This document shows, one piece after another, positions 37,749 through 56,010 of a stretch of DNA of 64,000 nt. The stretch is from Pseudomonadota bacterium (lineage in GTDB: Bacteria; Pseudomonadota; Alphaproteobacteria; Acetobacterales; Acetobacteraceae). The notes below the pieces were generated by a model. It was not told the DNA's origin and searched no databases. It saw only the letters and a list, made by a program, of their open reading frames with translations. The position numbers and the translations under genes were made by a program. The stretch spans positions 1 through 64,000 of the forward strand of contig JAFEFW010000641.1 of assembly GCA_018240405.1 (NCBI GenBank). The letters run 5' to 3'. Within the stretch, counting starts at the first letter, position 1. Each line of letters opens with the position of its first letter.

Positions 37749-38492
37749 TCAGCACTCCGCGTCAGCGACGCCGGTCACCTCAATCGCCACGGCGGTAACG
37801 TTGTCGCTGGCCTGCTGCACCAGGGCCGCATCGATCATCGCCTGTGTCGGCGCGGCTTGTGCGCCGGCGCGCAGCAGAGCGAGGATGTCCTTCTCCTCCA
37901 GAGCCTTGAACAGCCCGTCGGAGCAAAGCAGGAAGCGGTCGCCATTTCTTAGCCGGTCTGAAACATCATCCAGCACCAGGGTGTCGTCAGCACCTACCGC
38001 ACGCGTAATGATGTTGCCGTGCGGATGGCGATCAGCCTCCGCCGCGGTGATCGCGCCGGAGTCCAGAAGTTCCTGTACGACGCTATGATCATGCGTGATC
38101 TGGTGCATCCGCCCGTTACGCAACAAATAGGCACGGGAGTCGCCGGCCCATAAGCAGGCATACTGGGTATCACGCACCACCAGCGCCACCACGGTCGAGG
38201 CCATCATCACCGTCGGCCCGCGCGACTCGGCCAGCCGACGCAAGGCATTATGAGTCGTCAGGACAGCCGCGCGTACATGTGCCACCAGTTCGGAATCGTC
38301 GGCTCCGGCGGGCAGAGAATTCAGCGCCTGGCGCAACATCCCGGACGCAATCTCGCCGCCTTGATGGCCACCGGCACCGTCCGCAACCGCCCACACACCA
38401 AGGTCCGGGCGATCCACAAAGGCGTCCTGATTGACAGTCCGCTTCGCCCCCGGGTGCGTCGTTGCCCACGACACGACATGCGGCCGGCTCAT
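37749..38492 (-). CDS. PP2C-family Ser/Thr protein phosphatase
   Basis: 247 residues from the ATG at 38492, with GGAG 8 nt upstream. Bacterial PppA/PrpC-type PP2C with metal-site motifs KRTVNQDAF, WAVADGAGGHQGGE, LWAGDSRAYLLRNG, FLLCSDGLFK and SDNVTAVAIEV. The first motif reads NQD where most have NED. Cytosolic, no membrane segment. It would dephosphorylate targets of the Ser/Thr kinase encoded two genes upstream, with the FHA protein between them, the same trio as PpkA-PppA-Fha of type VI secretion. A palindrome lies just upstream, in its 5' leader. Confidence 0.92.
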   Translation of the reverse strand: MSRPHVVSWATTHPGAKRTVNQDAFVDRPDLGVWAVADGAGGHQGGEIASGMLRQALNSLPAGADDSELVAHVRAAVLTTHNALRRLAESRGPTVMMASTVVALVVRDTQYACLWAGDSRAYLLRNGRMHQITHDHSVVQELLDSGAITAAEADRHPHGNIITRAVGADDTLVLDDVSDRLRNGDRFLLCSDGLFKALEEKDILALLRAGAQAAPTQAMIDAALVQQASDNVTAVAIEVTGVADAEC

Positions 38493-38526
38493 GTCATCGC
38501 TCCAGAGCGTCCTTCCTGGTGTCCCC

Positions 38527-38561
38527 GGCACCCAGCGTAACAGACCTGTTACTCGGGTGCC
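38527..38561. promoter_or_regulatory. nested palindrome upstream of PP2C gene
   Basis: Inner perfect inverted repeat GTAACAG-AC-CTGTTAC (38537-38552), flanked by a second perfect pair GGCACCC (38527-38533) and GGGTGCC (38555-38561). The whole is a 35-bp two-tier palindrome 35-70 bp before the PP2C start and after the FHA gene stop. Reads equally as a dimer operator or as an RNA stem-loop; no T-run follows. Confidence 0.55.
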
Positions 38562-38692
38562 ATGGTCCGCTCATCCTGAATTTCAATATTGTAACGTTCT
38601 TGCGCCATGCCACAAGCGGCTGTCGCAGCATCTCGCCACGCCGTGGAAACCAGCTGCCAGCAAAGCGGCCACGACGCCCGATGCCGGGGCGA

Positions 38693-39925
38693 TCATTCGG
38701 GATCGCTGGCTTCCAGGTCATTCAGCGCCTCCTCATAGGCTCGGGCAAACGCCCGGCCGAAGACGCTGTCGAAGTCGTCGTGCAGCGCCTGCGCCATCTT
38801 TTCGTGCAGCGCTTCGTAAGTATCCCAGGCCCGTGCCTTCTTGTGCGCCGGCAGCAATGACATGCCGCCGGCTCGTTCAATTGCGCTGCGAATCCGTTGC
38901 GGATCAAGGTCCGAGAGCAACGCCTGCGCCGCGGCCTGCATGGCAGTCATCGAGGCAAGTTCGTGCAGTTTGATGTCGCGCAGGGCTTCCCCCACCACCG
39001 CGGCGGGTAGCAGGTCAGAGCGGCGGCCAATTCCCAACAGGGCGGCAATTGCATCGTCATCGTTGGCGGAAAACTTCAGCGGATTGTTGCCGCGCGCCCG
39101 GATCATCGTCTGCTCGATGCGGAACTCACCTTTGATCTGGGCGCGCGCGATCAGCACCGCGCGGAGGCCGGCCACCAACACCCGGAACGTCTCGCCCAGC
39201 CGCAGGAACATCTGTTCGGGGTTGGCGGGATAAACGTCCGGCAGGTCCAGCCCGGAGAAGAACGCATCCATCAGGCTGGAATCAGGCGGCAGCGCGGTCT
39301 GCCGCTGTGCCCGGTCCTCGGCCAGCGCAGGGGGCGAAGGGAGCGGCGAGCGCATGGACGTCTCGTCCATGCCTCCCGCGGACAACGCGGTCTCTGCCGG
39401 CCAGTCATTTTGTGGCGGTGGCTCCACGACAGGCGGTGGCTCCGCCCGCAGCGGCCGTAGCGGCACGACATTGGGCTTCAGCGCCGGCGGCAGCCCGCCC
39501 TGGCTGCCAAGCGATGGGTCGCTCGCACCCGGGGCATCGTCAAAATATTCCTCATGCACTGCCGCTGTGCGCTGGCGTGTGCCGGGCGGCGGACGACGGG
39601 ACAGCGAGTCCTCATCGAGACTCGCCTCCAGCTCATACGGACCGATGCGGATGCGGTCATTATTACGCAAGCGGCGCCGGTTGCCGCGGCCAATCGGCGC
39701 CTTGTCCCAATTGGCATATGTACCATTCGAGCTTTCGTCGATGATATGCCAGCGCCCGGCGCGCATCATGATGGTGAAATGCCGCCGGGAAATCGTCTGC
39801 TCCGGATCGTGCAGCACCCAGTCGACGCCAGGCCCGCGGCCAACCGACAATTCGCCGGCGTTGACCAGACGGGTCTCGGGCCGCACCGAGGCCGGGCAGC
39901 GCAGCATAGTCAGGGTCAGAGGCAT
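38693..39925 (-). CDS. FHA-domain protein with TagH-like C-terminus
   Basis: 410 residues. N-terminal FHA domain (~1-105) with phosphothreonine-binding signatures SVGRGPG, SRRHFTI and ESSNGTYANW. A low-complexity Pro-rich middle (~110-225) follows. The helical C-terminal domain (~228-405) has LMDAFFSGLDLPDVYPANPEQMFLRLGETFRVLVAGLRAVLIARAQIKGEFRIE split over 50 residues. That domain's wording resembles the type VI secretion Fha/TagH/ImpI C-terminal domain, as I recall it. No type VI structural gene occurs in the window. Its partners here are a Ser/Thr kinase upstream and a PP2C downstream, so it probably reads the kinase's phospho-Thr mark. Confidence 0.88.
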   Translation of the reverse strand: MPLTLTMLRCPASVRPETRLVNAGELSVGRGPGVDWVLHDPEQTISRRHFTIMMRAGRWHIIDESSNGTYANWDKAPIGRGNRRRLRNNDRIRIGPYELEASLDEDSLSRRPPPGTRQRTAAVHEEYFDDAPGASDPSLGSQGGLPPALKPNVVPLRPLRAEPPPVVEPPPQNDWPAETALSAGGMDETSMRSPLPSPPALAEDRAQRQTALPPDSSLMDAFFSGLDLPDVYPANPEQMFLRLGETFRVLVAGLRAVLIARAQIKGEFRIEQTMIRARGNNPLKFSANDDDAIAALLGIGRRSDLLPAAVVGEALRDIKLHELASMTAMQAAAQALLSDLDPQRIRSAIERAGGMSLLPAHKKARAWDTYEALHEKMAQALHDDFDSVFGRAFARAYEEALNDLEASDPE

Positions 39926-40107
39926 CGCCGGGGCGACCGGATAATGGCAGAAATCGGCGTCACACTTCCTCCGCGATCAGTTCGCCTGGGCTGCCCGCCA
40001 TGATATTACGTGCACTTTCCCGCCTGCCCTGCAACCTTTTCATTTTGCGGGTGACATCACCGGCCGTTGCATGCCGGTGCCAGCGCGTCGCCCCTGCCGG
40101 GTGCCTG

Positions 40108-42267
40108 CTACTTCGGCAACGTGTCGACCAGCATGGCGTTGCCGATAAGCCGTCCACCCGCCCTCTCAAAGTTGCGGACGGCAGCCGCGAGGTCGTGCAG
40201 GTAGGCATCGGCCTTCTCCACATTGCCCGGCCGCGGTTTGGCAAACAGCGGCTGTGACGAGGCAATGGCAATGATCATATCGGTGCCGTAGGGTGGCCCG
40301 ACTTCCCAGGCCGGCTGGCCCGGCGACGGATCGCCCAGTGCTACACGCTCGCCGGCCGGAAACACCTTGACCTTGTCGGCGACCACACCTTGGTCCGCCA
40401 CTTGCGGGTACAGGTGCTGCACAGCGCCATCATGCGTCACGTAGTCGACGCGAAGGTATCCGGGAAAGTTCGGCATCACAATGCGCGGGCGGATTCGCTG
40501 ACCGTCATGCAGTGCCGTCCGCTCGTCCGCCAGCGACAGCGCCAGCCGCGGCTCTATGGAGGCGAAGGCCGGGGCGATTGGCCGCAGGACATCGAGTGGC
40601 TGGCAGAACACGCTTTCCGCCGCGCTGGTCCGCCACAGCACAGGAATGGCAGCGCCCGCCAGCGCATCGCGGACATCGTCGCGCACGCCCGGCCCGGCGA
40701 TGCCGGTCAGGGTCACGGTGCCCCTGTCGCTGACCGCTCCGTTCAGTAACGAGCAGGATTGTCCCGCCACGATCTGCGCGAACCGCTCGCGGATCGCGGC
40801 GATATCCGGGCCGGGCGGCGGGGCCGGTTGGGACGGCGGCGGGCTGACGATGGGCGGTTTTTCCGCCGCAACCTCTCGCGGCGGAGCGGGCTCCGCCGGC
40901 TTGGCGGTCTGCACGGGCGGGGGCTGGGTGGTACTTGGTTGCGCTGCCTGCGCAGTCGGGGTTTGCGCTTGTTGGGTCGGCGGTGGCTGCGGTGGCGGCG
41001 CGACGGGCTGCGGCGTGGGGGTGACGGCCTGCGGCGCTGGGGTAACGGCCTGCGGTGCCGGCGTCACCACTGCAGGCGACGTACTGACCGAGGGCGCTGG
41101 CGGCGCATTCTGGCGCAGCATAAAAAAGGCGCCGCCGCCACCAACCGCCAGCAAGGCAATAACGGCTCCGGCGATCAGTGGCACCTTGCTGGAGCCGCTG
41201 CTTACCGGTTCGGCGGGTGACGGCGGCGGCGGTGGCGGCGCAATGACCGTCGCCTCGGATGGCGGTGCGCTGGCCGGCGGGGCAGCGGCCGGCTGCGGCG
41301 GCAGCGTCTCCAGCGTCGCCATCGCCATCGTGGCGTCCATTTCGGCCGCCCCTGCGGCAGCGGCCACCGTATCCGGCCGCGCCACCAGTGTCGCCTCCTC
41401 GGCGGTCAGTGTGTCCAGAGTCGCCGCCGCTCCCGGCGCCCGGACCGCGGTCACCAGCGCCTCGGAAAAATCGTGCGCGCTTTGGAAACGCTCCGCGGGG
41501 CGCTTCGCCATTGCCTTCTTCACCACGGTATCCAACGCCGGGGTGACATTGACCGACAGCTGCGACGGCGGAATCGGCTCCGTGTTCAGCACCTTGTGCA
41601 TGATCGCCGATAGCCCGCCCTCAAACGGGCGTTCCCCGGTCAGCATCTGGTACAGCAGCACGCCGCAGGCGTAGATGTCCGTCCGCGGATCGACCGTCTG
41701 ACCCATGAACTGCTCGGGCGACATGTAGGTCGGCGTGCCCATCATCACGCCGGCCTGGGTCATGCTGCTACTCTCGATCCGGGCAATGCCGAAATCGGAG
41801 ATCTTGATGCGGGCGCGCGACCGATCCGTGCTGGTCAGCATCAGGTTGGCCGGCTTGATGTCACGGTGGACGACGCCCTGCTCATGGCTGTGTTCCAGCC
41901 CGGCCAGCACGTCCTGCATGATCTTGACGACGTCCGGCAGCGCGAACCGGTCGTTCTTGCCCATCACCTCCTTCAGGCTCGGTCCGTTGACGAACTCCAT
42001 CACGATGTAGGCGAGTTCGTTGGTCTCACCGTAGTCGAACACCGAGACGATGTTGGGATGCGTCAGCCGCCCCGCGGCCTGCGCCTCCCGCCGGAAGCGG
42101 GCGATAGCCTCCCGAGTTTCTTCGTCGTCGGTGTCGCTGATCGGCACAGTCTTGATCGCAACCACGCGCTGGATCGTCGGATCCCAGCCTTCGTACACGA
42201 CGCCCATGGCGCCGCGCCCGAGCACGCGCTTTATCTCGTACTTGCCAAGTTTCTCCAGCGTGTCCAT
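40108..42267 (-). CDS. transmembrane Ser/Thr protein kinase (PpkA/PknB type)
   Basis: 719 residues; GAGG precedes the ATG. Kinase domain ~10-270: G-loop LGRGAMGVVYEG, Lys39 in VAIKTV, catalytic Asp136 in VVHRDIKPANLM, DFG Asp158, and activation-loop end GTPTYMSPEQFMG with Thr residues for autophosphorylation. One membrane helix at ~358-380 (VPLIAGAVIALLAVGG). Then a long Pro/Gln/Thr-rich stalk (APQAVTPAPQAVTP repeats) and a C-terminal periplasmic domain with a DUF4384-like look (PGYLRVDYVTHDGAVQHLYP, PYGTDMIIAIASSQPLF). The outer domain probably senses an envelope signal. It lies directly after the CHAT gene. Confidence 0.93.
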   Translation of the reverse strand: MDTLEKLGKYEIKRVLGRGAMGVVYEGWDPTIQRVVAIKTVPISDTDDEETREAIARFRREAQAAGRLTHPNIVSVFDYGETNELAYIVMEFVNGPSLKEVMGKNDRFALPDVVKIMQDVLAGLEHSHEQGVVHRDIKPANLMLTSTDRSRARIKISDFGIARIESSSMTQAGVMMGTPTYMSPEQFMGQTVDPRTDIYACGVLLYQMLTGERPFEGGLSAIMHKVLNTEPIPPSQLSVNVTPALDTVVKKAMAKRPAERFQSAHDFSEALVTAVRAPGAAATLDTLTAEEATLVARPDTVAAAAGAAEMDATMAMATLETLPPQPAAAPPASAPPSEATVIAPPPPPPSPAEPVSSGSSKVPLIAGAVIALLAVGGGGAFFMLRQNAPPAPSVSTSPAVVTPAPQAVTPAPQAVTPTPQPVAPPPQPPPTQQAQTPTAQAAQPSTTQPPPVQTAKPAEPAPPREVAAEKPPIVSPPPSQPAPPPGPDIAAIRERFAQIVAGQSCSLLNGAVSDRGTVTLTGIAGPGVRDDVRDALAGAAIPVLWRTSAAESVFCQPLDVLRPIAPAFASIEPRLALSLADERTALHDGQRIRPRIVMPNFPGYLRVDYVTHDGAVQHLYPQVADQGVVADKVKVFPAGERVALGDPSPGQPAWEVGPPYGTDMIIAIASSQPLFAKPRPGNVEKADAYLHDLAAAVRNFERAGGRLIGNAMLVDTLPK

Positions 42268-42340
42268 CAGCGCCTCAGGCTATGGCCGCACCATAACCGA
42301 ACCGTCCCGGTTGAGCGATATTGTCCTTCTTCAACGTTGC

Positions 42341-42356
42341 ACCGGCGGGAGCCGGT
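42341..42356 (-). terminator. hairpin at end of CHAT gene
   Basis: ACCGGC-GGGA-GCCGGT, a perfect 6-bp stem with a 4-nt loop, starting in the CHAT stop codon and lying 74 bp before the kinase start. Lacks a T-run; may be an mRNA-processing or attenuation stem within the operon rather than a full terminator. Confidence 0.35.
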
Positions 42357-45300
42357 CAGCCGCCGGCCGGACCGCCCGGAACAGCGGCCATTTTTCCGCC
42401 TCCGCCTTCCCCGCGCCCGCCGATCAGCGCCGCGACTGCCCAATAATACGGATGGGCCTGCACGGCGCGTTCGCCGACCGATTCGCTCAACATCCGCCGT
42501 TGCGCGTTCGCCAGCGCCATGGCCGGGCCGGCTTGCGGACTGGCATTCAGGTTCCCCAGGAACAGCGCGGTCAGATAGAGCGTCGTCGCATCGTTCGCTT
42601 CCCAGTGCGTCACCAGCAGTGAGCGGGCGCCGGCAAAAAAGAAGGCACGTGCCAGACCGGACAGGCTTTCACCGGCCGCGCCGTTGGCACCGCCCGTGTT
42701 GCACGCGGCCAGGATAACCAGTTCGGCGTCGAGTTCCATTTGCTGGATCTGCGACGCGGTCAGCATGGCGGCGGAGGCATTTGGTGCGTTTGGCGGCGTC
42801 GAGGTCAGTACCGCCGGTTCAGCCTGGCAGCGCAACTCGCCCGGCAGGATGGCATGTGTGGCGAAGTGCACGATGCGGAAGTTCTTCAGCGGCGCCTTCA
42901 GCACGGCCTGCGAGGTGAACGCCATGCCCAGAAGTTGGTCGCGCGCCGCGGCGCCCTCCAGTTGGCGGGCCACCTCAAGCTCCCGGACAGCCCCCGGCAG
43001 CGGCGGCAGCGAGGCCAGCGCCTTGGCGCTGTCGCCGCACGCGTCGACCGGGAAGGTCGCCATTGCCTGCTTCAGGCTGGGCGGTTTGAAATCGCCCATG
43101 CCGAACCAGGGGTTGCGCGCCTGCACGGTCTTCGCGCCCTTGCGCAGGTTGACGAAGCTGGCCGCCGACGGCACGTGCGAGATCGCATACTGCTTGATCA
43201 GGAAGGGTGCCGCACTGAGGTTGCTGTCCTCGGCCGGGCCGGTCAGCAATGCCGCGAAGGGCACCGACAGCAGACTGCCGGCCGGCGCCACGGTCAGCGC
43301 GTTCACGCCCGACAGGCCAGACTGCACCGGTGCCAGTACCGCGTCGTAGATCCCACGCGCGGCTGCGATGTTGAACGCATGTGGCCGGTTGTCGCGGCCA
43401 AGTTCCATCGCATCGCGGAATGCCTTCACCATGCCATCGAGCTTGGCGGCGCCCCCGGAAATGCGCCCGGCGCTGATGGAGTCCTTGCGGATCAGCAGCG
43501 TCCAGCCTTCGTTCGGCCCAACCACCATCGTGGCGACCGCCTCATCCGGTCCCAGCAGCGCCTGCACGTCGGCGGCCGAAACGGATTCCTGCACCAGCGC
43601 GGCAAAGCCCGGCGACGCCGCCTGGCGCGCCTCACCGGCATCGCGCTGCGCGGCGACGGCCTTGCGAATTTCCTCATCCAGCGCCTTGGCCGAGGTGCTG
43701 TCCTTATCGCCGCCCAGTTCGAGCCGGCGGCGATACAGCGTCTCCAGCTTCGCCGTGGCGGCGTCATAGGCGTTGATCGCGTCCGCCACCTTCGGGTCGC
43801 GGGCGCTCTCTGCGAGGCGCGCCGCTGCCAACGCAATCTGCCGGCTGGTAATGCTGCCCTGCGCCAATTGGGACAGGGCAAACATCTCCGCCAGCACCGG
43901 TTGGCCGCCGCGGGCGACCTCGGTGTTCAGCGCATCGAGGCAGGGGATCAGCAGCGCCGGCTCGACGCCGCCCTTCAGTGTGCCAAGGGTCTTTGCAGCA
44001 GAGCGGCACTCGGGCAGTGCACTGGAATAGCTCCCGGCGGCGGCAAGGCGTGCCGCGTGCAGCAATTGCGTTTCGGCCAGCGGCATGGTGCCGGGCTGGC
44101 CGCGGTTGAAATTGTCGACCGCACGCTGCAGGTCGGCTGCGTCACCACGGACACCCGCATCGCCGAGACCCATGCCGACGGTGCGGTAGAAGCGCGCCGC
44201 CAGCCGCGGGTCACGGCCGGCGTAGAGATCGGCGGCGGATTGCAGCGCCGCTTCGGCGTCCTGGGTGCGGCCCATTTCCGCCAGCGCAATGGCCTGATAG
44301 CGCCGGGTCTCGATCACGCTGTTCAGCGCCTGGTTGGCGGTTGGGTCGGACATGATCGACATGTCCTCGGCTTCCTGCGCCAGGCGTTCTGCGGTCGTCC
44401 GGGCAACGCGGTTGTTGCGCGCACGGGGCCGCAGTGCGTCCGGCGGCACCAGCTTCAGGAACCCTTGCTCTGCCTGCTTCAGCAGCGGCAGTGCCTCGGC
44501 CGGCTTGTCGCGGTTCAGCAGGTCGAGCGCGCGCATGTCAGCGACCATCGGCCGCGCCAGCGGGTCGATCTGGTTACGCTGCGACACCAGCTTTTCGGCA
44601 CGGGCGAACAGCCGGTCCGCCTCGGCATAGCGGCCCTGGTTGGACACCTGCAGCGCCTCACGTGCCACTGGCACGGCCAGCGCCGGGTTGTCGGCGCCGA
44701 CGATGCGCTCCTGGATCGAGATTGCCGCGCGGTAGGCGCTTTCCGCGGCAGCGTAGTTGCCGCGCCGGTTCTCCATGGCACCACGCTGCATCTGCCGCTG
44801 TACTTCGGCGATGGCGCCGGCACCCTGGATATTGACGGCCTGCGAGGCGGAACGCTGCGCTTCCAGACCGGAATCGAGTGCCGCGGCCGGGCTGGCGGAG
44901 ACCTTGCCGGCCACCACGCCGATCGCCTTGGGCAGCACCGATTCCACCGGCCTCACGCCGTCGGCGACAAACATCTTGCCGTCGATACTGGTGGCGAGCA
45001 CGACCTGCTGCCAACCGCCCTGGCGGCGGGTGCACGACAAGGTCGCGGCCGGGGCGCCCAGCACGGTGGTCGATGTCGGCGAACCGCACAGGAAGCGGCT
45101 GTCGAAGCTGCTGCGCCACGGGCTGGAGCCGAGAAATGCCGACGGGTCCGCCGTCGTCGTCTGTGTGTCGACCCGGCCCGCGGGCTCAAGGTAGCTGCCG
45201 CAGAAGATCTCGGCATTATTGGCGCCTTGCTGCAGCGAGCAGGCTTCATTGGCGGTGTTCTTGCCCAGGTCCAGGGCCTGCCCGCTGCGGGCGCTGCCGA

Positions 45301-45388
45301 CATAGACGTCGGCCGGTGGCTTGGAGCAGGCGACCAGCGCCAGGGCGGCCGCGGCGGCCAGGCCGAGAGGGCGCGACCAGCGAATCAT
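42356..45388 (-). CDS. lipoprotein CHAT-domain (caspase-like) protease with TPR region
   Basis: 1010 residues. Lipoprotein signal with lipobox LVAC, Cys21. Residues ~190-500 are helical, TPR-like (RGNYAAAESAYRAAISIQERIVG, EMGRTQDAEAALQSAADLYAG). The CHAT domain occupies ~640-1000. It has the catalytic dyad His845 in IVHFATH and Cys896 in LVILAACNTGG, and GLARAFFFAGARSLLVTHW, all as in CHAT peptidases. So the protease would be lipid-anchored in the periplasm or outer membrane rather than cytosolic. Its ATG overlaps the stop of the giant exoprotein gene (ATGA), so the two are made together. Likely role: processing or surveillance of that exoprotein, inferred from the coupling. Confidence 0.92.
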   Translation of the reverse strand: MIRWSRPLGLAAAAALALVACSKPPADVYVGSARSGQALDLGKNTANEACSLQQGANNAEIFCGSYLEPAGRVDTQTTTADPSAFLGSSPWRSSFDSRFLCGSPTSTTVLGAPAATLSCTRRQGGWQQVVLATSIDGKMFVADGVRPVESVLPKAIGVVAGKVSASPAAALDSGLEAQRSASQAVNIQGAGAIAEVQRQMQRGAMENRRGNYAAAESAYRAAISIQERIVGADNPALAVPVAREALQVSNQGRYAEADRLFARAEKLVSQRNQIDPLARPMVADMRALDLLNRDKPAEALPLLKQAEQGFLKLVPPDALRPRARNNRVARTTAERLAQEAEDMSIMSDPTANQALNSVIETRRYQAIALAEMGRTQDAEAALQSAADLYAGRDPRLAARFYRTVGMGLGDAGVRGDAADLQRAVDNFNRGQPGTMPLAETQLLHAARLAAAGSYSSALPECRSAAKTLGTLKGGVEPALLIPCLDALNTEVARGGQPVLAEMFALSQLAQGSITSRQIALAAARLAESARDPKVADAINAYDAATAKLETLYRRRLELGGDKDSTSAKALDEEIRKAVAAQRDAGEARQAASPGFAALVQESVSAADVQALLGPDEAVATMVVGPNEGWTLLIRKDSISAGRISGGAAKLDGMVKAFRDAMELGRDNRPHAFNIAAARGIYDAVLAPVQSGLSGVNALTVAPAGSLLSVPFAALLTGPAEDSNLSAAPFLIKQYAISHVPSAASFVNLRKGAKTVQARNPWFGMGDFKPPSLKQAMATFPVDACGDSAKALASLPPLPGAVRELEVARQLEGAAARDQLLGMAFTSQAVLKAPLKNFRIVHFATHAILPGELRCQAEPAVLTSTPPNAPNASAAMLTASQIQQMELDAELVILAACNTGGANGAAGESLSGLARAFFFAGARSLLVTHWEANDATTLYLTALFLGNLNASPQAGPAMALANAQRRMLSESVGERAVQAHPYYWAVAALIGGRGEGGGGKMAAVPGGPAGG

Positions 45389-48300
45389 GTTCTGTAATCC
45401 CTCTTGGCGACGTCGGGGAGCAGGTCTTCGTCTTCAAAATCGTTCAGCATGCCGCCCATTTGCAGGTCCTGCAGCCCGTTGATGATCGGGATCGTCGTCA
45501 GGTTCTGCAGGTTCTGCGCGCCGTTGATGCTGGTCGACAGGTTGCCGGTACCGCAACTGGTGGCGATCGCGCAGCCGTTGATCTGGTAGTTCGCCTGCAC
45601 GCCCGGTGCGATGAACGAGATCGGCGCTGCGCCGATGCCGCCAACGCCACCGACCGATCCGGTCAGGTTGATCAACACGTCGGTCGGCGGTCCGTATCGC
45701 ACCTGCAGTCCGGCAACCACAATCGCGCCAGCCGCGCGACCATTGCTCAGGTCAAGGAACAGCTTCGCCCCGGGGTTCTCGAATGTGCCAATGCTGGCGA
45801 GGCCGGGTCCGGTCAGGGCGAAGCTGACGGCAATTGGCGTGGCACCGGACACGGTCATGCCGGCGTTGTCGATGTTTGCCGCCTGCAGGAACACGCCGGG
45901 TCCCCCGGCAACCGGGAAGGATTGCTCCTGGAGCGGCTCGCCACCGATGCTGGCAAGGCCTGCGAAGCCACTGCCCGCGGCCAATGTCAGCGTCGATTGC
46001 GGTGCCGTAATTGCCACGCTGCTGGCGGTGATGACGCCCTGAACTGTCAGGCCTTCGGCGTTCGCCAGGCTGAACGCATGCCCTGCCGCCGTGAAGTTGC
46101 CAAGGTTCGCGACGCCGTTCGCGCCACTGAGGCTGACATCGCCGCCCGCGGAACCGGTAAGATTGGCGGTGCGGATCGCGCCGCTCGCCGCCTGACTAAT
46201 GCCAGCCGGCGTGGCAAGCTGAACGACGCCGCTGCCGGGGGTCGTTGACGCGATGAGGCCGTTGGCGGCAATGCCGCCATTGGCTGTCACGCCGACCGCT
46301 CCGCCGCTCTGCAGCACCGCGCTGGCAGCCTGGGTAAAGACGCCAGTGGTGAAGATCGCGGCACCGCTGCCGGCCGTGATCGAGCCGGCGTTCTGCACGA
46401 ATTGCCCGGTCGTTGCCGTCGATCCCCCCGCGCCAGCTGTGCCCGATCCGGTGCCGACCGCGAGGCGGCCGGTGCTGGCGATGAGGCCGCCATTTTGCAG
46501 AAGCGATGTCGCGGTGACGTTGCCGCGCGCGGTGGTGATGGTGCCGGCATTCTGCGTCACCGACCCGATGGCCACGTTGCCGAAATTCGCCGCCACAGTG
46601 CCGCCGTTCTGTGTCAAGGACGCCGCGGTGACGTTGCCCTGGGCGCTGACGCGGCTGCCGGCTGCCTGTGTCACGCCGCCGGCAAAGCTGATATCGGTCC
46701 CCTGACCGGTGGTCGCGACGAGCTGGTTGGCGCCGAGTGTTACAAGGCTGCTGTTCACCAGGATCGAGCCAGCGCTGGCGATGACGGCGCCGCCGTTCAG
46801 CGTGACACCATTGGTCAGCGTGCCATCCAGCACCACTGACCCAGCCTGGATGGTGCCGGCGTTCTGCACCAGCGGCCCGCCGGACACGCGTAGCGCAGCC
46901 GCTCCGCCGGCGCTGACGGTGCCGGTCTGGGTCAATGCGTTGGATTGCAGCGTCAAGTCGCCTGTGGTCGCGAAATCCGACAAGCGGGCGACGGCGTTGC
47001 TGAGGCGCGGCAGCGACGCGCTGCCAGTCGTGTTCCCCCAGCCGATCGCCGCCGCGTTGGCCCAGCCCAGGGCAATAAGGCCGGCCGGCAATGTCGTACC
47101 GGCGCCGGCGCTGCCGGTCAAAAGTGATGCGGTGACGCCGCTACCAGCCTGCTGCGAAATCTGGTTCCGCGCATAGAGGCCGAGGCTGGAGGCATAGAGC
47201 GAGCCGGCGATGTCGATCGAGCCGGCAGTCAGCACCAGCGGCATGGTGTTGCTAGGTGACGTCGGCGTCGGCCCCTGGACGCTCGGCAGCGCCAGGGCCG
47301 GTACGGGCTGCGCGGACTCCGACGGCACCTGGAAGCAGTTGGCGCAGACCAGCGTGTAGCCACTGGCAATGGCCGTCGTCGCTGTCACTGACCCGGCTGT
47401 TGCGAAGACGGTGGTGCCGCTTGGCACCTGTATGGTTCCTGCCGGTGCCTGTACGGCGTTGCCGCCGATGACGTTGCCGTTCACTGCCACCTGCGGTCCG
47501 GCGACCACGCCAGTCAGCACCGCATTGCCGCCATTGGTCAGCAGCATGAAGCCGGACGGTTTGCCGGCGGCGGACACGGTTCCGCCGACGGACAGGCCGG
47601 TAGTTGCGGTGACGCCCAGGGTGCCGCCGCTGGCCAGGATCGCTCCACCCGATTGGGTGAAAGCGCCCAATGAGAAAACGTTTACGGCCTGGCCACCGAC
47701 GGCCACGCCGCCGCTTTGGTTGAAGCCGCCGCCGGTGGCGACCGACCCGCCCCATCCCGCGACACCGGAGCCGCTTCCAACCGCGAGCGTGGTCCCGGCG
47801 CTGAGGGTGCCGGCGGTCTGGTTCAGCGTCGTGGCGCCGATCGTGCCGGCGGCGATGATGGTGCCGCCGTTCTCCTTCAGCAGGCCGTTGACGTTGACGT
47901 TGCGGTTCGCCTGGATCCGGCTGTCGGTGGCTTGCGAAACCGCGCCCGACAGCACCACGTCCTGCGCGCTGTTCACCGCGGCGATGACCTCGCCGCTGCC
48001 GACGTTGATGATGCCCGCGCTCAGCGCGACAGATCCGTTCGTTCCCGTGGCGATGATCCGCCCGTTCGGCGGATCGCCGTTGGCGCTTCCGGCCAGGGCA
48101 ATGGTGCCGCCGAAGGTGTCGGCGGTGATGGCGACCGCGCCGCCGTTGATCTGGCCGGCGGCTTGCGTGAAGGTCGAACCCGTGCCGTTGACGGTGATCG
48201 CGATATTGCCGCCCTGCGTGCCGTTTGGCACGGCGGCGATCACGGGCGGCGGGTTTGCGTCGGACGGCCACTCCATCAGGATGTCGCCGGTGAAATTGAT

Positions 48301-51300
48301 GCCATTCTGCGTGGTGAGGGAAACGTTCACGCCCGGGCGCGACTGACCATCGTCGATGCCGCCCGAAATCACGCCCTGGACGTCCAGCTTGCCCAGAACG
48401 CCAATCCCGAGCGTGCCCGCCGTAGCTGCGCTGCGCACGGCGGTGCCGGCTTGCACCGTGCCGACCTGGGTCAGCGTATACGGCGCCTCCAGCGGAGCAA
48501 TTGAAATCACGAAATCGCCGGTGGTGCGGAAGTCGGACAGGGTGCGGATGTTGTTCCAGCGGTTCGGCGCGGTCAGCGAGACGTTGCCGATGGTATCGGC
48601 GCTCGGCGTGTACCAGCCAAGGGCGATCGAACTGCCCCAACCCAGGACACTGAGCCCCGGCGAAACAATGGCGTTGCGCAGAACGCCGGCAGTGCCGGTC
48701 AGCGTGCCGGTGTTGATCAGGCCCAGCGCAGATTCAGAGATCAGGGTCTTGGCGTATAGTCCGAGATGGGAGGTGACGATGCGTCCCTGAATGTCGATCG
48801 TGCCGCCGACCAGAACCGCGGGAATGGGCGGCGCGAAGAAGTTCACCGCATTGGCTGTCGATGGCAGTTGCAGCGGGGTGACGGGCGGCAGGGACAAGGC
48901 GAGGCCTAGCGTCTGCCCAGGTGCGAACAGCGTGTAGCCGGTTACAATGGTATTCGAGGCGTTAATCGATCCAAACGTGGCAACTGACTGCGTCTCGCTT
49001 GAATCGATGCGCACCACGCCGAGCGGGGCCTGGACAGCATTACCGACGATTATGGTGCCACTGTTCACCTCGACCGCCGGACCGGCGACCCGGCCCTCTC
49101 CGGTGATGGTCGCGGTGGCGCCGTCACCTGTTGTCAGCAGCATGAAGCCGGTCGTTCCACCAGCCGCGACCGTGCCGGCCACGCTGATATTGCCGCTGGC
49201 GGTGACGCCAAGCGTGCCACCCGCCGCGAACAGGGCGCCGGCGCCCTGGGTGAAATTCCCGGCGCTGAACACGTTCGCGTCCTGGTTGACAACGATCACG
49301 CCGCCGGTCTGCTCGAAGCTGCCGGAAATTGCGCCGGAGCCACCCCAGCCGGCGATGACTCCGTTGGAGCCGATGCCGGAGACGCTGGCGAGGGCTAACC
49401 TCTGGGAGTTGCCGTCGAAACCTTCCCCGACGTCCAGATTGCCGCCGATGCTGAAAAGTCCGCCGCTCTGGCTGACGCCGCCGACCACGGCGTTCCCCAC
49501 GGTAATCACATAGCCGCTGCTCTGAGTCAGCAAACCGGAGACGGCCAGGCCACCATTGCTGCCGACGTAGGCGTTGCCGGACACGGCGAGGTTGCCGTCA
49601 ACGAAGATGTCTGTCGCATTGTTCAACGTCGCAACGATACCGACGCCGGATACCGAAACGTTGCTGCCCGTCAGGCTGATGAACCCGTCCTCCTCCACCC
49701 CGCCCACCGCGATCACGCGCCCATCGGTAATCGAGATGCTGTTGGTGCCGGTCATCCGCACCGAACCCGCGTTGATGAGGCCGGCGGTCTGGACGATGGA
49801 GTCGGCGGTCAGCACCGCTTCGCCGTCGGCCTTGATGACCGGCAGGATGATTGACCCGATCTGCTGGATCGCGATCGTGCCGGCGGTCAGCGACAGGCTG
49901 CCACCCGGGCCGGCGACGACCTCGCCGCCGATGGTCATGGTGCGGCCGGGTGTCTCAATGGTAACCGTCTGCCCGCCGGACTGTGCGCCGTAGCCGGCGA
50001 CGACGTTGCCCTGGATCGACAGGTCCGTGCTGTTGCGCACGGTGATGTTGCCCCCTGCCGCCAGCGCCCAGGTGATGCCGGGCGGCTCAAGGCCGATCGT
50101 GCCGATGGCGTTGCTCGTGCCGATTAACGAGATATCGCCGCTGATGATGCCGGCATTGGTCAGCAGGCCGACATCCAGCACGCCGCCGGTCTGCTGCGTC
50201 ACGCCGCCGTTCGATGCTTCCAGCATCAGCCGGCCAGCGGTGAGCGTGCTGGCAGCCAGGTTGATGCCGTTCGTCCCGCTCAGCACGATCGTACCCGCGT
50301 TCAGCGCGGTGAGGTGGGCGGACAGCCCGATGCTGCCGCCATTCATGGTGATGCGGCCGGCGGTGACGTCGGCGCCGACCGAAATGTTCCCGCCATTGGC
50401 GAGCATGGACACAGTCTGGAAGGCGTTCGCGCTAATTGGCGCGTTCGTCGTCAACGTGATGTTCGGCGCCTGCAGGGTCAGGCTGAGTGCGCCGCCGGAC
50501 AACGTGATCGGCGCATCGTCATAGATCAGCGACTGTGCCTGCAGCACGATATTGCCGGCCAGCGAGCCGATCGTATCGATGGTGATGGTTGCGTTGGACG
50601 GCGGCGAGCCGGCCGCAACGGTGCTGCCCGACAGGACCGCGTCGGTGGTGCCGGAGGCGACGATGTTCAGAACCTCGGGATCCAGCAGAATCGTGCCAGC
50701 GAGACCTTGCGGTGCGGTGACGTCGACCGGCCCGGTCAGGCTAAGTCCTTTGTCGCCGGAAACCTCGACGAAGCCGCCGTTGCCGCCGTTCGGGCCGCCC
50801 TTCGCGGTGATTGCGCCGGCCATGTCCGTGCTGTCGGTCGACAGCACGGTGACCCGGCCGCCCGGGCCGCTGTCAACGGCGTCCGCCGCCACTTTCGCGC
50901 CCTTGGCGACCTGCACCACCTTTGCGGTCCTCGCGCCGGAGACCGAGGGGCCGCCGGTGGCGCGCGCCAGTGTGGTGCCAATGGCGACGGTGCCGCCGCC
51001 CGCCGGCCCGGAGGCCGAAACGTTCGCCGTCGCGGTCAGCGAGACCTTGCCCGACGCATTGGCGACGATCGCGCCGCCGGTGGCGCCCGGTCCCACGCCG
51101 TCGGCCGATACGTCACCGCTGACAACGACGTCACCGCCACGGCCGGCGATCACGATCTTGCCGCTCCGGGCGGTAGTACTTTTTGCCGAGATGTTGCCGC
51201 CGGCATTCACCAGCGTCTGGACGACGCCGTCGACGGCCTGCGCCGTGAGCACCACCGTGCCGCCCTGCGCCTGGACTACGCCGGTGTTGGTGACCAGCGC

Positions 51301-52032
51301 GGCGCCGCCGTCCGGTGCCTTCGTCACCTGCTTGGTAACATTAAACGACACCATGCCGTCGCCGTACAGGTCAAGCGTGTGCGCCTCGGCGCCAGCCAGC
51401 ACGACCTTGCCCATATTGGCCCGGATGACGCCCGAATTCGCCACCTGCGGCGCCACCAGCGCGGCCAGGCCACGCTCTGCGACCGTGATCTCGCCCTGGT
51501 TGATGATCTTGGCGTCGGGCCGGCCTGGCTGATCGAACTTCAGGTTGCCGGCCATCAGGTTTTCATTGCTGATATTGGCCGACGACACGACGAGGCCGGC
51601 GGTATTGATGATCGCGCCCTTGTGGACGGTCAGGCCTGCCTGGTTGACGATTACGACCGTGCCGTTCGCCTGGATTTTGCCGGCGATCTGTGACGGGTTG
51701 GGTCCAACGACCCGGTTCAACGTGACGGCGCTGCTATTCGGAGCCTGGATGTCGACTTTGTGGGCGCTACCGACGTCGAAGCTTTGCCAGTTCACCGCCG
51801 CACGCTGGCTGCCCTGATTGATAGCGGTCGTAGCGGTCGATTGCGAAATGCTGGCCTGTCCGGCGACGACCTGGCCGCCGGTCGGACGTGCAGTCGGCGA
51901 AAGCTGTGCCAGCGCGGGGTGGCTCAGCATGACCGCGACCGCGGCCTGTAGCGCGGTGGTCGCCATCAGTCCGGTGCGTGCGCCGGCAGTGCCGACGGTG
52001 CGGTGATGAACGCCGGGCGTGAGCAAATTCAT
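45385..52032 (-). CDS. giant filamentous-haemagglutinin-type exoprotein (TpsA)
   Basis: 2215 residues from ATG 52032, 5 bp after the tpsB stop; the frame is open to 52194 inside tpsB. Signal region with hydrophobic core before SHPALAQ. The TPS secretion domain (~45-270) has VNWQSFDVGSAHKVDIQ, RVVGPNPSQIAGKIQANG, and VVIVNQAGL. The body is Gly/Ala/Thr-rich beta-helix sequence containing a large unit repeated about three times. The unit is marked by VFSAGNFTQG-like, VFSLGAFTQS-like and IFTTGVFTQA-like segments near nt 49255, 47660 and 46335. The C-terminus has a Cys pair (GCAIATSCGTGN) and an acidic end (NDFEDEDLLPDVAKRDYRT). Probably a long surface fibre or adhesin. Confidence 0.93.
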   Translation of the reverse strand: MNLLTPGVHHRTVGTAGARTGLMATTALQAAVAVMLSHPALAQLSPTARPTGGQVVAGQASISQSTATTAINQGSQRAAVNWQSFDVGSAHKVDIQAPNSSAVTLNRVVGPNPSQIAGKIQANGTVVIVNQAGLTVHKGAIINTAGLVVSSANISNENLMAGNLKFDQPGRPDAKIINQGEITVAERGLAALVAPQVANSGVIRANMGKVVLAGAEAHTLDLYGDGMVSFNVTKQVTKAPDGGAALVTNTGVVQAQGGTVVLTAQAVDGVVQTLVNAGGNISAKSTTARSGKIVIAGRGGDVVVSGDVSADGVGPGATGGAIVANASGKVSLTATANVSASGPAGGGTVAIGTTLARATGGPSVSGARTAKVVQVAKGAKVAADAVDSGPGGRVTVLSTDSTDMAGAITAKGGPNGGNGGFVEVSGDKGLSLTGPVDVTAPQGLAGTILLDPEVLNIVASGTTDAVLSGSTVAAGSPPSNATITIDTIGSLAGNIVLQAQSLIYDDAPITLSGGALSLTLQAPNITLTTNAPISANAFQTVSMLANGGNISVGADVTAGRITMNGGSIGLSAHLTALNAGTIVLSGTNGINLAASTLTAGRLMLEASNGGVTQQTGGVLDVGLLTNAGIISGDISLIGTSNAIGTIGLEPPGITWALAAGGNITVRNSTDLSIQGNVVAGYGAQSGGQTVTIETPGRTMTIGGEVVAGPGGSLSLTAGTIAIQQIGSIILPVIKADGEAVLTADSIVQTAGLINAGSVRMTGTNSISITDGRVIAVGGVEEDGFISLTGSNVSVSGVGIVATLNNATDIFVDGNLAVSGNAYVGSNGGLAVSGLLTQSSGYVITVGNAVVGGVSQSGGLFSIGGNLDVGEGFDGNSQRLALASVSGIGSNGVIAGWGGSGAISGSFEQTGGVIVVNQDANVFSAGNFTQGAGALFAAGGTLGVTASGNISVAGTVAAGGTTGFMLLTTGDGATATITGEGRVAGPAVEVNSGTIIVGNAVQAPLGVVRIDSSETQSVATFGSINASNTIVTGYTLFAPGQTLGLALSLPPVTPLQLPSTANAVNFFAPPIPAVLVGGTIDIQGRIVTSHLGLYAKTLISESALGLINTGTLTGTAGVLRNAIVSPGLSVLGWGSSIALGWYTPSADTIGNVSLTAPNRWNNIRTLSDFRTTGDFVISIAPLEAPYTLTQVGTVQAGTAVRSAATAGTLGIGVLGKLDVQGVISGGIDDGQSRPGVNVSLTTQNGINFTGDILMEWPSDANPPPVIAAVPNGTQGGNIAITVNGTGSTFTQAAGQINGGAVAITADTFGGTIALAGSANGDPPNGRIIATGTNGSVALSAGIINVGSGEVIAAVNSAQDVVLSGAVSQATDSRIQANRNVNVNGLLKENGGTIIAAGTIGATTLNQTAGTLSAGTTLAVGSGSGVAGWGGSVATGGGFNQSGGVAVGGQAVNVFSLGAFTQSGGAILASGGTLGVTATTGLSVGGTVSAAGKPSGFMLLTNGGNAVLTGVVAGPQVAVNGNVIGGNAVQAPAGTIQVPSGTTVFATAGSVTATTAIASGYTLVCANCFQVPSESAQPVPALALPSVQGPTPTSPSNTMPLVLTAGSIDIAGSLYASSLGLYARNQISQQAGSGVTASLLTGSAGAGTTLPAGLIALGWANAAAIGWGNTTGSASLPRLSNAVARLSDFATTGDLTLQSNALTQTGTVSAGGAAALRVSGGPLVQNAGTIQAGSVVLDGTLTNGVTLNGGAVIASAGSILVNSSLVTLGANQLVATTGQGTDISFAGGVTQAAGSRVSAQGNVTAASLTQNGGTVAANFGNVAIGSVTQNAGTITTARGNVTATSLLQNGGLIASTGRLAVGTGSGTAGAGGSTATTGQFVQNAGSITAGSGAAIFTTGVFTQAASAVLQSGGAVGVTANGGIAANGLIASTTPGSGVVQLATPAGISQAASGAIRTANLTGSAGGDVSLSGANGVANLGNFTAAGHAFSLANAEGLTVQGVITASSVAITAPQSTLTLAAGSGFAGLASIGGEPLQEQSFPVAGGPGVFLQAANIDNAGMTVSGATPIAVSFALTGPGLASIGTFENPGAKLFLDLSNGRAAGAIVVAGLQVRYGPPTDVLINLTGSVGGVGGIGAAPISFIAPGVQANYQINGCAIATSCGTGNLSTSINGAQNLQNLTTIPIINGLQDLQMGGMLNDFEDEDLLPDVAKRDYRT

Positions 52033-52037
52033 TGCAG

Positions 52038-53831
52038 TTAAAACCGTTGCAGAAGTTGCCAATAGAACGCGGCGGAGGACAGCGGTGAAATGCCCGTTCC
52101 CTGTCCACCGTTCGGGTAGCGATTCTGGCGGTAGACGCCCTCGAAATCTATTTCGGTAGCAGAACTTAGGAAGAAGCGCACGCCGCCGCCCCACGACCGC
52201 AGGACCACGTCCGCCTCCAGGCTGGTATTCTGCCAGGCCTGACCCCAGTCATAGAACAGGTAGAACTGCGACTGCACCTCGAACGGGATCGGCTTCGGCG
52301 TCGGCAATCTGGCGTTTAGCTGCAACTCAACGGCAGCGGTAACGGCGCTGTCGCCACTGACCTGGCCATAGTAATAACCACGGTTGAACTGTGGACCACC
52401 GAGATAAAACTTCTCGGCAGGCGGCAGCAACACGGCGCTGTACTGCCAGCCGACGCGGCCTGCCAGTGCCACCGAAGCATCGGCGAACGGCCGGAACAAG
52501 GTCTGCGTGCGGGACGTCTCACCGCTGATCTTGGTGAAGGTGATGGTCTCGCCCAGGCGCGGCGGCGGGGTCCAGGTGTCGTTGTTTGACGAGGCGCCGA
52601 GCGCCGAAACACCCTGGCTGAGCTTGGCGCTGAAGCTGTTGATACCGGTACGATCTGCGCCCAGCCAGGTATCGAGCATTGCGTAGTCTTCGCCGAGGCG
52701 AAAGACTCGCAGGCTGTCGAAGGAACTGCGCTGCGGCGTGCCAAATTGGTTCAAATTGTTCTGCGTATTGTTCTCTAGCGCATCAAAAGCCAGGGACATG
52801 ACAAGGCTCTGAGCCCTGGAACGGATGACCGGATACGCGAAGGAGCCGCCGAAGATATCGGTGCGGCCGGTATAGCCGATTTGCTGCAGGACGCCGCGTG
52901 GCGAGGAACGGCCGCCACCGCCATACAGGCGGAATTTCAGGCCGGAACCGCCGACGAAAAGTTCCTCGGAAACCTGGCCGAAGAAGTTGGCACCGTTCAG
53001 TGCGCCATACAGCGACAATTGTGTCTGCTCACCATACTCGGTGAAGCTGTTGGCATTGAAAACGCCCAGGCCCTGCTTGGGACCGATCAGGTCAAACGCC
53101 CGGTTGTCCGCCGAGATGTAGCCGGTGAACGGCCGGCGGGAAACTTGAGCGACAAGGGTCAGAGCGCCTGGATCGCCCTCGGATGGATTCAATACCGATT
53201 TGACCGTGAGGCCGGGAATGTCCTGCGCCAGCAGCAGCCAGCGCTCAAGCTCCGCGGTGTTCAGCGGCGTCTGGCCGACAAGGTGGCGCAGGAAACGCAG
53301 CACTTGGGTGCCCGCCGGTCCGATGTCGCCGTCCAGCTTCACGTCGGCGACGTAGCCCTCGATCACCTGGAACCGGACTTCGTTACGCTGCACCGTCGCC
53401 TGCACGGTGGTGAAGGCGTAGCCCTGGCTCCGGTAGAGGTCGACGATGGCGGCGCGCGACGCTTCAATCTGTGCCTCGGGCACCGACGGACCCGTCAGGC
53501 CTTGCGTCAGGGCCGCAATCTGCGATTGCGGAAAGGCGGTGGCACCGTTGATGACGACGTTGGAGATGGCATGCGTTGCGCCGCCGGTTACGGATTCGGG
53601 CGCCGTCGGCCGTGCGGGCCGCGGCAGACCTGGCGCCAGTGTGGGCTGTTCCGGCTGCACAATGCCGGGCAGCGGCGAGCCCTGTAGCACCGAGGGCGGG
53701 GTAAAGGGTCTTGGAACCTCCTGCGCGTGGGCGGTGGTCACGGTGCCGGCGCCAAGCAGGAACGCGACCCCGATTCGGGTCAGGCCACGGGCACGTACTC
53801 GGCTCGCATAGGTTGTATGAGACCTAACCAC
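52038..53831 (-). CDS. two-partner secretion outer-membrane transporter (TpsB/FhaC-ShlB type)
   Basis: 597 residues from the GTG at 53831, preceded by AAGGG with a 6-nt spacer. A GTG at 53939 would add 36 residues but lacks a ribosome site and disrupts the signal peptide. Signal: RVRARGLTRIGVAFLLGAGTV with cleavage after AHA. A Pro-rich lead is followed by POTRA domains (~95-250: VINGATAFPQSQIAALTQGL, VRFQVIEGYVADVKLDGDIG, PGLTVKSVLNPSEGDPGALTL). The 16-strand-type barrel ends in aromatic SSAAFYWQLLQRF, a C-terminal Phe as expected for Bam substrates. The barrel has the conserved FYDWG-type motif (YLFYDWGQAW). It exports the TpsA encoded 5 bp downstream. Confidence 0.94.
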   Translation of the reverse strand: MVRSHTTYASRVRARGLTRIGVAFLLGAGTVTTAHAQEVPRPFTPPSVLQGSPLPGIVQPEQPTLAPGLPRPARPTAPESVTGGATHAISNVVINGATAFPQSQIAALTQGLTGPSVPEAQIEASRAAIVDLYRSQGYAFTTVQATVQRNEVRFQVIEGYVADVKLDGDIGPAGTQVLRFLRHLVGQTPLNTAELERWLLLAQDIPGLTVKSVLNPSEGDPGALTLVAQVSRRPFTGYISADNRAFDLIGPKQGLGVFNANSFTEYGEQTQLSLYGALNGANFFGQVSEELFVGGSGLKFRLYGGGGRSSPRGVLQQIGYTGRTDIFGGSFAYPVIRSRAQSLVMSLAFDALENNTQNNLNQFGTPQRSSFDSLRVFRLGEDYAMLDTWLGADRTGINSFSAKLSQGVSALGASSNNDTWTPPPRLGETITFTKISGETSRTQTLFRPFADASVALAGRVGWQYSAVLLPPAEKFYLGGPQFNRGYYYGQVSGDSAVTAAVELQLNARLPTPKPIPFEVQSQFYLFYDWGQAWQNTSLEADVVLRSWGGGVRFFLSSATEIDFEGVYRQNRYPNGGQGTGISPLSSAAFYWQLLQRF

Positions 53832-55107: not shown

Positions 55108-55350
55108 TACGGTCTCCTGCGGATTGTGGCGGCGATGGCCGTATGGCGGGGGCACGTTACGGGAAACAAGTTCAGGGTGTTGCAGCCGCTAAGCAAGTGC
55201 CATGCCGATGCAAACCAGTTATTGTGGATCATTCATGACGCGGCGGCGGCGCGATGCGCCAGCACTCCAAGTGCGGTTGCTGCGAATTTATTTGCTTCGA
55301 TTGTGCACCATGTTAGTTTGCATACGCAGTCAGTTTTCAGGAGATGTCCA

Positions 55351-55977
55351 ATGCGCAGCCGGATGGTCCCCATCGTTGCGGGTCTTTTCGCTGTCGTGGC
55401 GACGCAAGCGTTCGCTCAGAACCCGTCCGCCGACCAGATCATCAAGTCGCTGACCCCATCCGGCGACGTCAGCAAGCAGGGCACCCGTGGCATCCGCCTG
55501 TCGACCGGTGATGGCTCTGGCGCAGCCGCAGCGCCGGCGGCGCCCGCGCCGTCGGCCGGAGCGGCCCGCAAGCCCAGCCATGGTGCCATGGCGTCCTCCA
55601 AGCCGATGGCCCCGACAGAGGCGAGCGGTCCGTCGGTCGACCTGACGGTGAACTTTGAAACTGCTTCGGCCGACCTGACCGCCGATGCCATGAAGACCCT
55701 GGATGAACTCGGCGCCGCGCTGAGCAGCGATGCGCTGAAGCAATACCGCTTCCGCGTTGAAGGGCACACCGACACGGTCGGCAATGCCGCGAGCAACAAG
55801 ACCTTGTCTGAACGCCGGGCGCGGGCCGTGGTGAACTACATTTCCGCCAAGTACGGCATACCGACCGGTCGCATGGTCGCGGTTGGCATGGGTGAGGAAG
55901 GCCAGGCGGTAAAGACTGGCGATCAGGTGGCGGAGCCCAAGAATCGCCGGGTGGTGGTCGTGAATTTGGGCGCCTGA
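55351..55977 (+). CDS. OmpA-family peptidoglycan-binding protein
   Basis: 208 residues from ATG 55351 with CAGGAG upstream; the frame is open to 55012 but only this start gives a signal peptide (MRSRMVPIVAGLFAVVATQAFA). A ~70-residue Ala/Pro-rich spacer leads to an OmpA-C domain (~95-205): VNFETASADLTADAMKTLDELG, VEGHTDTVGNAASNKTLSERRA and RRVVV near the end. The conserved Asp/Arg pair for diaminopimelate binding is in the HTDxxG and SxxRA motifs. It has no beta-barrel domain and no lipobox, so it is a periplasmic peptidoglycan binder. Next genes downstream are on the same strand and may be cotranscribed. Confidence 0.9.
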   Translation: MRSRMVPIVAGLFAVVATQAFAQNPSADQIIKSLTPSGDVSKQGTRGIRLSTGDGSGAAAAPAAPAPSAGAARKPSHGAMASSKPMAPTEASGPSVDLTVNFETASADLTADAMKTLDELGAALSSDALKQYRFRVEGHTDTVGNAASNKTLSERRARAVVNYISAKYGIPTGRMVAVGMGEEGQAVKTGDQVAEPKNRRVVVVNLGA

Positions 55978-56010
55978 GCGTCCATGGCCTGCCGCTGATA
56001 TTATCCGACC

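Follow-up and report, generated by a model that had tools for sequence, protein, structure and literature searches.

How a type VI secretion system (T6SS) learns of a neighbour or of a surface is, to our knowledge, known in only a few models. The control of T6SS by a kinase, an FHA protein and a PP2C phosphatase, two-partner secretion (TPS) and CHAT proteins are each already known. The locus described here raises the question of what these parts do side by side, in a setting from which the T6SS core is absent. It lies in the window, i.e. the whole 64,000-nucleotide stretch analysed, which makes up most of a 68.8-kb contig in a draft genome of 7.37 Mb and 681 contigs. Our best explanation, which we hold to be moderately probable, is a switch that works by threonine phosphorylation of the T6SS kind, acts on a second membrane target and is linked to both a surface fibre and a CHAT lipoprotein; half of a T6SS superlocus stands here without the T6SS core.

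Eight genes form the set

Naming of the window ORFs with Pfam and NCBIfam profiles bore out the six consecutive minus-strand ORFs at 37749-53831, in coordinates and in families, as proposed by a sequence-only reading of this DNA. That reading had missed that the FHA protein is of the T6SS TagH type, and also two plus-strand genes upstream of TpsB, which recur with the six-gene set. These two, an OmpA-like gene and a previously undescribed HExxH membrane protein, are members of the gene set. The features are as follows:

52038..53831, minus strand: TpsB outer-membrane transporter (POTRA_2, ShlB), likeliest start GTG at 53831
45385..52032, minus strand: TpsA, TPS-domain exoprotein, ~2,215 aa from the ATG at 52032
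42356..45388, minus strand: TPR-CHAT lipoprotein (His845, Cys896, lipobox Cys21)
40108..42267, minus strand: membrane Ser/Thr kinase (Pkinase and DUF4384)
38693..39925, minus strand: TagH-type FHA protein (FHA and T6SS_FHA_C), orthologue of the T6SS FHA of the same-genus genomes G199 and G099
37749..38531, minus strand: PP2C phosphatase (PF13672), with homologues inside T6SS loci of relatives
55351..55977, plus strand: OmpA-domain protein with a likely signal peptide; inferred start, the ORF opening at 55012
56011..57150, plus strand: HExxH membrane protein, no Pfam match; with the OmpA-like gene it spans 55351-57150
56032..56058, plus strand: tail motif GDETVILVP of the HExxH protein, residues 8-16, with Thr11 as predicted phospho-site and FHA ligand
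56836..56850, plus strand: HELSH (HExxH) motif, residues 276-280

The TpsA ATG lies 5 bp past the TpsB stop and the CHAT start at 45388 overlaps the TpsA stop at 45385 by 4 bp, the gap and the overlap noted earlier both being present. On TpsA, the TPS domain (PF05860, 94.5 bits) is the sole domain matched, while PF08479 and PF03865 are over cut-off on TpsB; compared with CdiA/CdiB, for which a C-terminal toxin domain and an immunity gene are expected, it is CHAT, rather than a small ORF, that follows TpsA. The CHAT domain (PF12770, 165 bits) contains a His-Cys dyad and would make the lipoprotein a putative protease. Its catalytic motifs, like those of the kinase, FHA protein and PP2C, had been read as intact, which holds by eye in the translations of the latter three and, for CHAT, in an alignment of 77 homologues: His845 and Cys896 are kept in 76, the remainder being a gap, and Cys21 is kept in 72, the remainder being gaps.

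The kinase (Pkinase, E = 2e-54) reads, from its transmembrane segment in the sequence, as a membrane Ser/Thr kinase with a periplasmic part. The ectodomain displays an invariant Cys pair and DUF4384, and ends in a C-terminal Ig-like sandwich in a confident model (pLDDT 94.7); it is a candidate sensor. The FHA protein scores 283 bits against TIGR03354 TagH (cut-off 120) and 175 bits against T6SS_FHA_C. PP2C passes PF13672 (53 bits, cut-off 24) and falls below the NCBIfam Stp1 equivalog (190, cut-off 230). The HExxH protein has a predicted layout of a cytosolic Thr tail, a single transmembrane helix (33-55) and a periplasmic zincin-like HExxH domain.

Two other neighbours were observed in the window. 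A fatty acid desaturase ORF (54196-55155, minus strand) separates TpsB from the OmpA-like gene; at its 5' end it runs into the ORF annotated as OmpA but stops short of the likely OmpA start. An ORF at 58826-61225 (minus strand, 799 aa), with no Pfam match, has a likely signal peptide, is Gly/Tyr-rich and harbors a 78-bp tandem repeat (59472-59657).

A T6SS superlocus in Acetobacteraceae relatives

We surveyed 200 genomes drawn from Acetobacteraceae, of which 87 have a CHAT match, 91 T6SS_FHA_C, 106 TPS and 101 the T6SS sheath gene TssC. After weak or minor matches were dropped for the linkage count (leaving CHAT in 86 of 87 genomes, FHA in 90 of 91, TPS in 105 of 106 and TssC in 98 of 101), CHAT and TssC are both found in 69 genomes, on one contig in 27 and at most 25 kb apart in 24, where uniform placement predicts ~1.2. 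CHAT and TPS are both found in 74 genomes, on the same contig in 48 and every time within 25 kb. The grouping is well above chance, and the CHAT-T6SS linkage is strong but not obligatory, 29 of the 98 TssC genomes being without CHAT. The HExxH protein is nearly confined to the family: strong matches occur in 83 of the 200 genomes, and among 240 genomes across the class in four others, one of them weak. It tracks CHAT in 72 of the 83 genomes and TssC in 73 (three weak genomes of 86, G045, G143 and G190, were left out of this count, which used all 101 TssC genomes).

Fourteen loci, picked for long contigs or for contrast and not as a random draw, were then fetched. Eight of them (G199, G005, G051, G160, G028, G067, G197 and G036) carry the whole superlocus on one stretch: TpsB, TpsA, CHAT, the kinase (STPK), OmpA, the homologue of the HExxH gene at 56011, TssF-TagJ-TssC2-TssC-TssB-TssA, ClpV, PP2C, TssL, TssK and FHA, the last being cut by the contig end in G028. 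G183 has everything except TPS, G020 has the module among more distant T6SS genes, and in G043 CHAT adjoins such genes. G099, of the same genus as the window, has T6SS, kinase, FHA and PP2C, with CHAT and HExxH matches absent genome-wide. A public Rhodopila record (L009) holds CHAT, OmpA, VgrG, DUF6931, FHA, TssJ, TssK, TssL, PP2C and STPK within 20 kb.

Two side observations concern these loci. G156 (L099, C99), again of the same genus, has only TpsB-TpsA-CHAT; its CHAT branches with G051/G129, apart from the window, so that the genus has two TPS-CHAT lineages. In G152 and in the majority of the T6SS loci examined, the FHA gene is preceded by DUF6931 (e.g. L081:10018-10614), for which no match was found in the window; this position makes DUF6931 a possible partner of the FHA protein.

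The kinase follows CHAT in many loci

The recurrence of TpsB-TpsA-CHAT with kinase, FHA and PP2C, on which the earlier proposal of a functional cluster depends, was assessed by fetching stretches of at most 20 kb flanking 96 additional CHAT matches. A CHAT match was present in 104 loci; 89 belong to the window type, and 74 of these have at least 1.5 kb downstream. With a limit of 200 bits, 42 of the 74 show a kinase match that starts 33-213 bp downstream of the CHAT match; six of the 42 come from genomes in which TssC had no match. Both OmpA and the 56011 homologue can be seen in 28 of the 42, and one of the two in three more, contig ends cutting several others. The remaining 32 have no kinase directly downstream, G067, G197, G058 and G043 carrying it elsewhere in the stretch and G133 having a match under the limit (157 bits). 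The association thus recurs, and G152 has all of it together without TssC, but it is not obligatory, as these 32 loci and the CHAT-less G099 indicate. Most loci where kinase, FHA and PP2C are seen together have them seated in a T6SS locus.

Sets of CHAT, kinase, HExxH and OmpA were also observed in L127 (G015), L169 (G106) and L138 (G033), two of them with a PP2C match; neither TssC nor a TagH-type FHA protein was found in these three genomes.

A threonine in the HExxH tail tracks the TagH-type FHA protein

The tail of the HExxH proteins carries an acidic-Thr-hydrophobic motif (GDETVILVP in the window, e.g. DDTVRIVP or DATVRIVP in others). The N-tails of TssL in 12 loci, typically DNPFxEPDDSDRTVIRP, look similar. 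In Agrobacterium tumefaciens, Fha binds TssL through phospho-Thr14 in DLPpTVVEI, a phosphorylation that depends on PpkA (PMC3953482); the HExxH tail is like this peptide too.

We read the tails in 53 of the 83 HExxH genomes: every one of the 16 that lack a PF20232 match, plus 37 of the 67 with one. Among 42 genomes with a TagH-type FHA protein, 40 retain the Thr, versus 3 of the 11 in which no such protein was found (Fisher p = 7e-6); counted by genus, the figures are 28/2 against 3/7 (p = 2e-4). The exceptions are G002 and G035, where the FHA protein is present and the Thr lost, and G147, G153 and G167, where the Thr is kept and no TagH-type FHA protein was found, G153 being a well-assembled case (20 contigs, 100% complete). 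Both are missing from G015, G033, G074, G080, G106, G165, G178 and G181. Within genera g21 and g34, members with the FHA protein keep the Thr and members without it have lost it; within g27 and g97, the Thr is still kept in members without the FHA protein. In G015, G033 and G106 the HExxH motif stays while the tail Thr is gone, indicating that it is the tail, not the enzyme, that follows the FHA protein there. The kinase persists in these three genomes although FHA and Thr are gone, so that it either has another target there or is on its way out. From motif and profile together we infer that the HExxH membrane protein is the best-supported new target of the phospho-switch, a predicted second FHA ligand beside TssL.

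The same eight genes occur without the sheath gene in G152

G152 (10 contigs, 100% complete) has no TssC match genome-wide and no T6SS core match in the 40 kb round the locus. It carries the same eight genes as the window, in the order STPK-CHAT-TpsA-TpsB, DUF6931, FHA, PP2C, unrelated genes, then OmpA and HExxH. Since the trees place neither the FHA nor the CHAT of G152 as sister to that of the window, two separate losses of T6SS genes, each leaving the same eight genes, probably took place. With the eight genes present and the weapon genes missing both in the window and in G152, the switch may well have a separate function.

Taken in its strict form, the sequence-only reading would have the switch gate the export of TpsA or its proteolytic release, and G152, which retains the module as a unit, speaks in its favour, as do G165 and G178, which hold TPS-CHAT-HExxH without TssC and without an adjacent kinase, and the protease-like nature of both CHAT and HExxH. 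We nevertheless consider it rather unlikely: the same switch sits in the T6SS loci of relatives, with a matching motif on TssL, the kinase is not directly downstream in the 32 CHAT loci counted above, and no link was found between the kinase and TpsA or TpsB.

The host T6SS core belongs to another lineage

With 14 host T6SS proteins as tblastn queries, no T6SS core match was found in the window. The host core is on two other contigs, C355 (TssB, TssC, TssC2, TagJ, TssF) and C623 (Hcp, ClpV, TssA, VgrG, DUF6931, a second FHA, TssJ, TssK, TssL), whose tetranucleotide make-up correlates with that of the window at r 0.98-0.99, compared with 0.93-0.98 for four other genomes. The window FHA is sister to the T6SS FHA of G199 and grouped with G199 and G099, while the FHA beside the host core falls in a branch with G078 and the Rhodopila record; a search with the FHA protein retrieved four relatives, which carry the label Acetobacteraceae or Rhodopila. 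For CHAT, TpsB, HExxH protein, OmpA and PP2C of the window, the nearest sequences are those of G199, G099 or the Rhodopila record; the kinase is equally near to G052 and G199, and TpsA lies slightly nearer to G182 and G002 than to G199. The host core is not closest to G199 (TssC 0.74 to G199 vs 0.91 for G199-G099). Judged from these comparisons, it is of a lineage other than that of the window set.

In G199 the minus-strand order is TpsB, TpsA, CHAT, STPK, VgrG, DUF6931, FHA, TssJ, TssK, TssL, an unlabelled 4 kb where we would expect TssM, and PP2C. The window order (TpsB, TpsA, CHAT, STPK, FHA, PP2C) equals the G199 order minus the T6SS genes, and this order together with the FHA orthology is why we infer a loss of the T6SS core rather than a state in which it had never joined.

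Alternatively, kinase, PP2C and CHAT/TPS of the window might regulate the host T6SS in trans, being merely placed elsewhere in the genome. The host TssL tail retains the Thr motif, and neither kinase nor PP2C has a match in the fetched parts of C355 and C623; however, these contigs break off close to TssF and just past TssL, which leaves room for either gene beyond their ends, the host T6SS has its own FHA, and G152 keeps the module without TssC. We regard this alternative as unlikely. That the set is what is left of a decaying T6SS locus and no longer has a function is more improbable still: the long FHA branches in the window (1.07) and G152 (1.15) versus G199 (0.28) also fit relaxed constraint, and the window FHA is less like ten outgroups than the G199 FHA in both domains (0.516 vs 0.588; 0.639 vs 0.714), but all frames are open, the catalytic residues and Thr11 are kept, and G152, non-sister in both trees, has the same eight genes.

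A proposed threonine switch with two membrane targets

We therefore return to the threonine-phosphorylation switch with a second membrane target. By comparison with relatives, the window genes are the envelope-facing and signalling half of the Acetobacteraceae T6SS superlocus, without the T6SS core. The membrane kinase would phosphorylate two tails: the cytosolic one of the HExxH protein, at Thr11, and, where relatives carry a T6SS, that of TssL, at the corresponding Thr. The phospho-Thr would serve as a docking site for the TagH-type FHA protein and be reset by PP2C. We propose these actions on Thr because of the motif, the phylogenetic profile and the published TssL case. On the periplasmic side, CHAT lipoprotein, HExxH domain and OmpA would work on the TpsB-exported TpsA fibre or together with it, and the kinase ectodomain would read the state of envelope or surface, leading to FHA recruitment at the membrane. 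This recruitment may promote T6SS assembly in relatives, while in the window and G152 it may serve the fibre/protease unit alone, the fibre being input or output.

A bolder form of this reading, which we advance tentatively and regard as possible rather than probable, is that a T6SS phosphorylation pathway was freed from the weapon: kinase, TagH FHA and PP2C would run a membrane zincin via a TssL-like pThr tail, and zincin and CHAT would control a giant surface fibre. If true, a contact-sensing fibre would have two clients, the T6SS being just one of them. The T6SS locus of many family members encodes a TPS fibre, a CHAT lipoprotein and a kinase whose ectodomain is conserved, which together make a concrete, testable sensor, and genomes with the switch but without the T6SS core separate the two possible roles of the switch.

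Relation to known systems

The PpkA-Fha-PppA pathway of T6SS, described for A. tumefaciens TssL Thr14 (PMC3953482), shares with the window a membrane kinase, a TagH-type FHA protein and PP2C, and with relatives the TssL tail motif. It differs in that the window-type kinase is tied to TPS-CHAT, that a second FHA ligand is predicted on the membrane HExxH protein, and that the T6SS core, present in relatives such as G199 and G051, is absent at the locus in the window and G152. In Acidovorax citrulli, the outer-membrane protein TssW acts on T6SS via PpkA and Fha (PMC12607579); the likeness is one of role, a single TssW lying between ppkA and fha there, whereas CHAT lipoprotein, TpsA/TpsB, OmpA and HExxH protein are found here. 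Two-partner secretion is matched by a TPS domain and a POTRA/ShlB transporter in tandem, here coupled to CHAT and a phospho-switch.

In the open-access literature, "CHAT domain" was not found alongside either "two-partner secretion" or "hemagglutinin", whether T6SS was included or not, and no title or abstract start among the matches listed describes such a TPS-CHAT-kinase-T6SS locus. The HExxH protein has no significant sequence match in Pfam or PDB; PPEP-1/Zmp1 and related zincins give a weak Z for the HExxH domain, which is here membrane-anchored with a cytosolic Thr tail.
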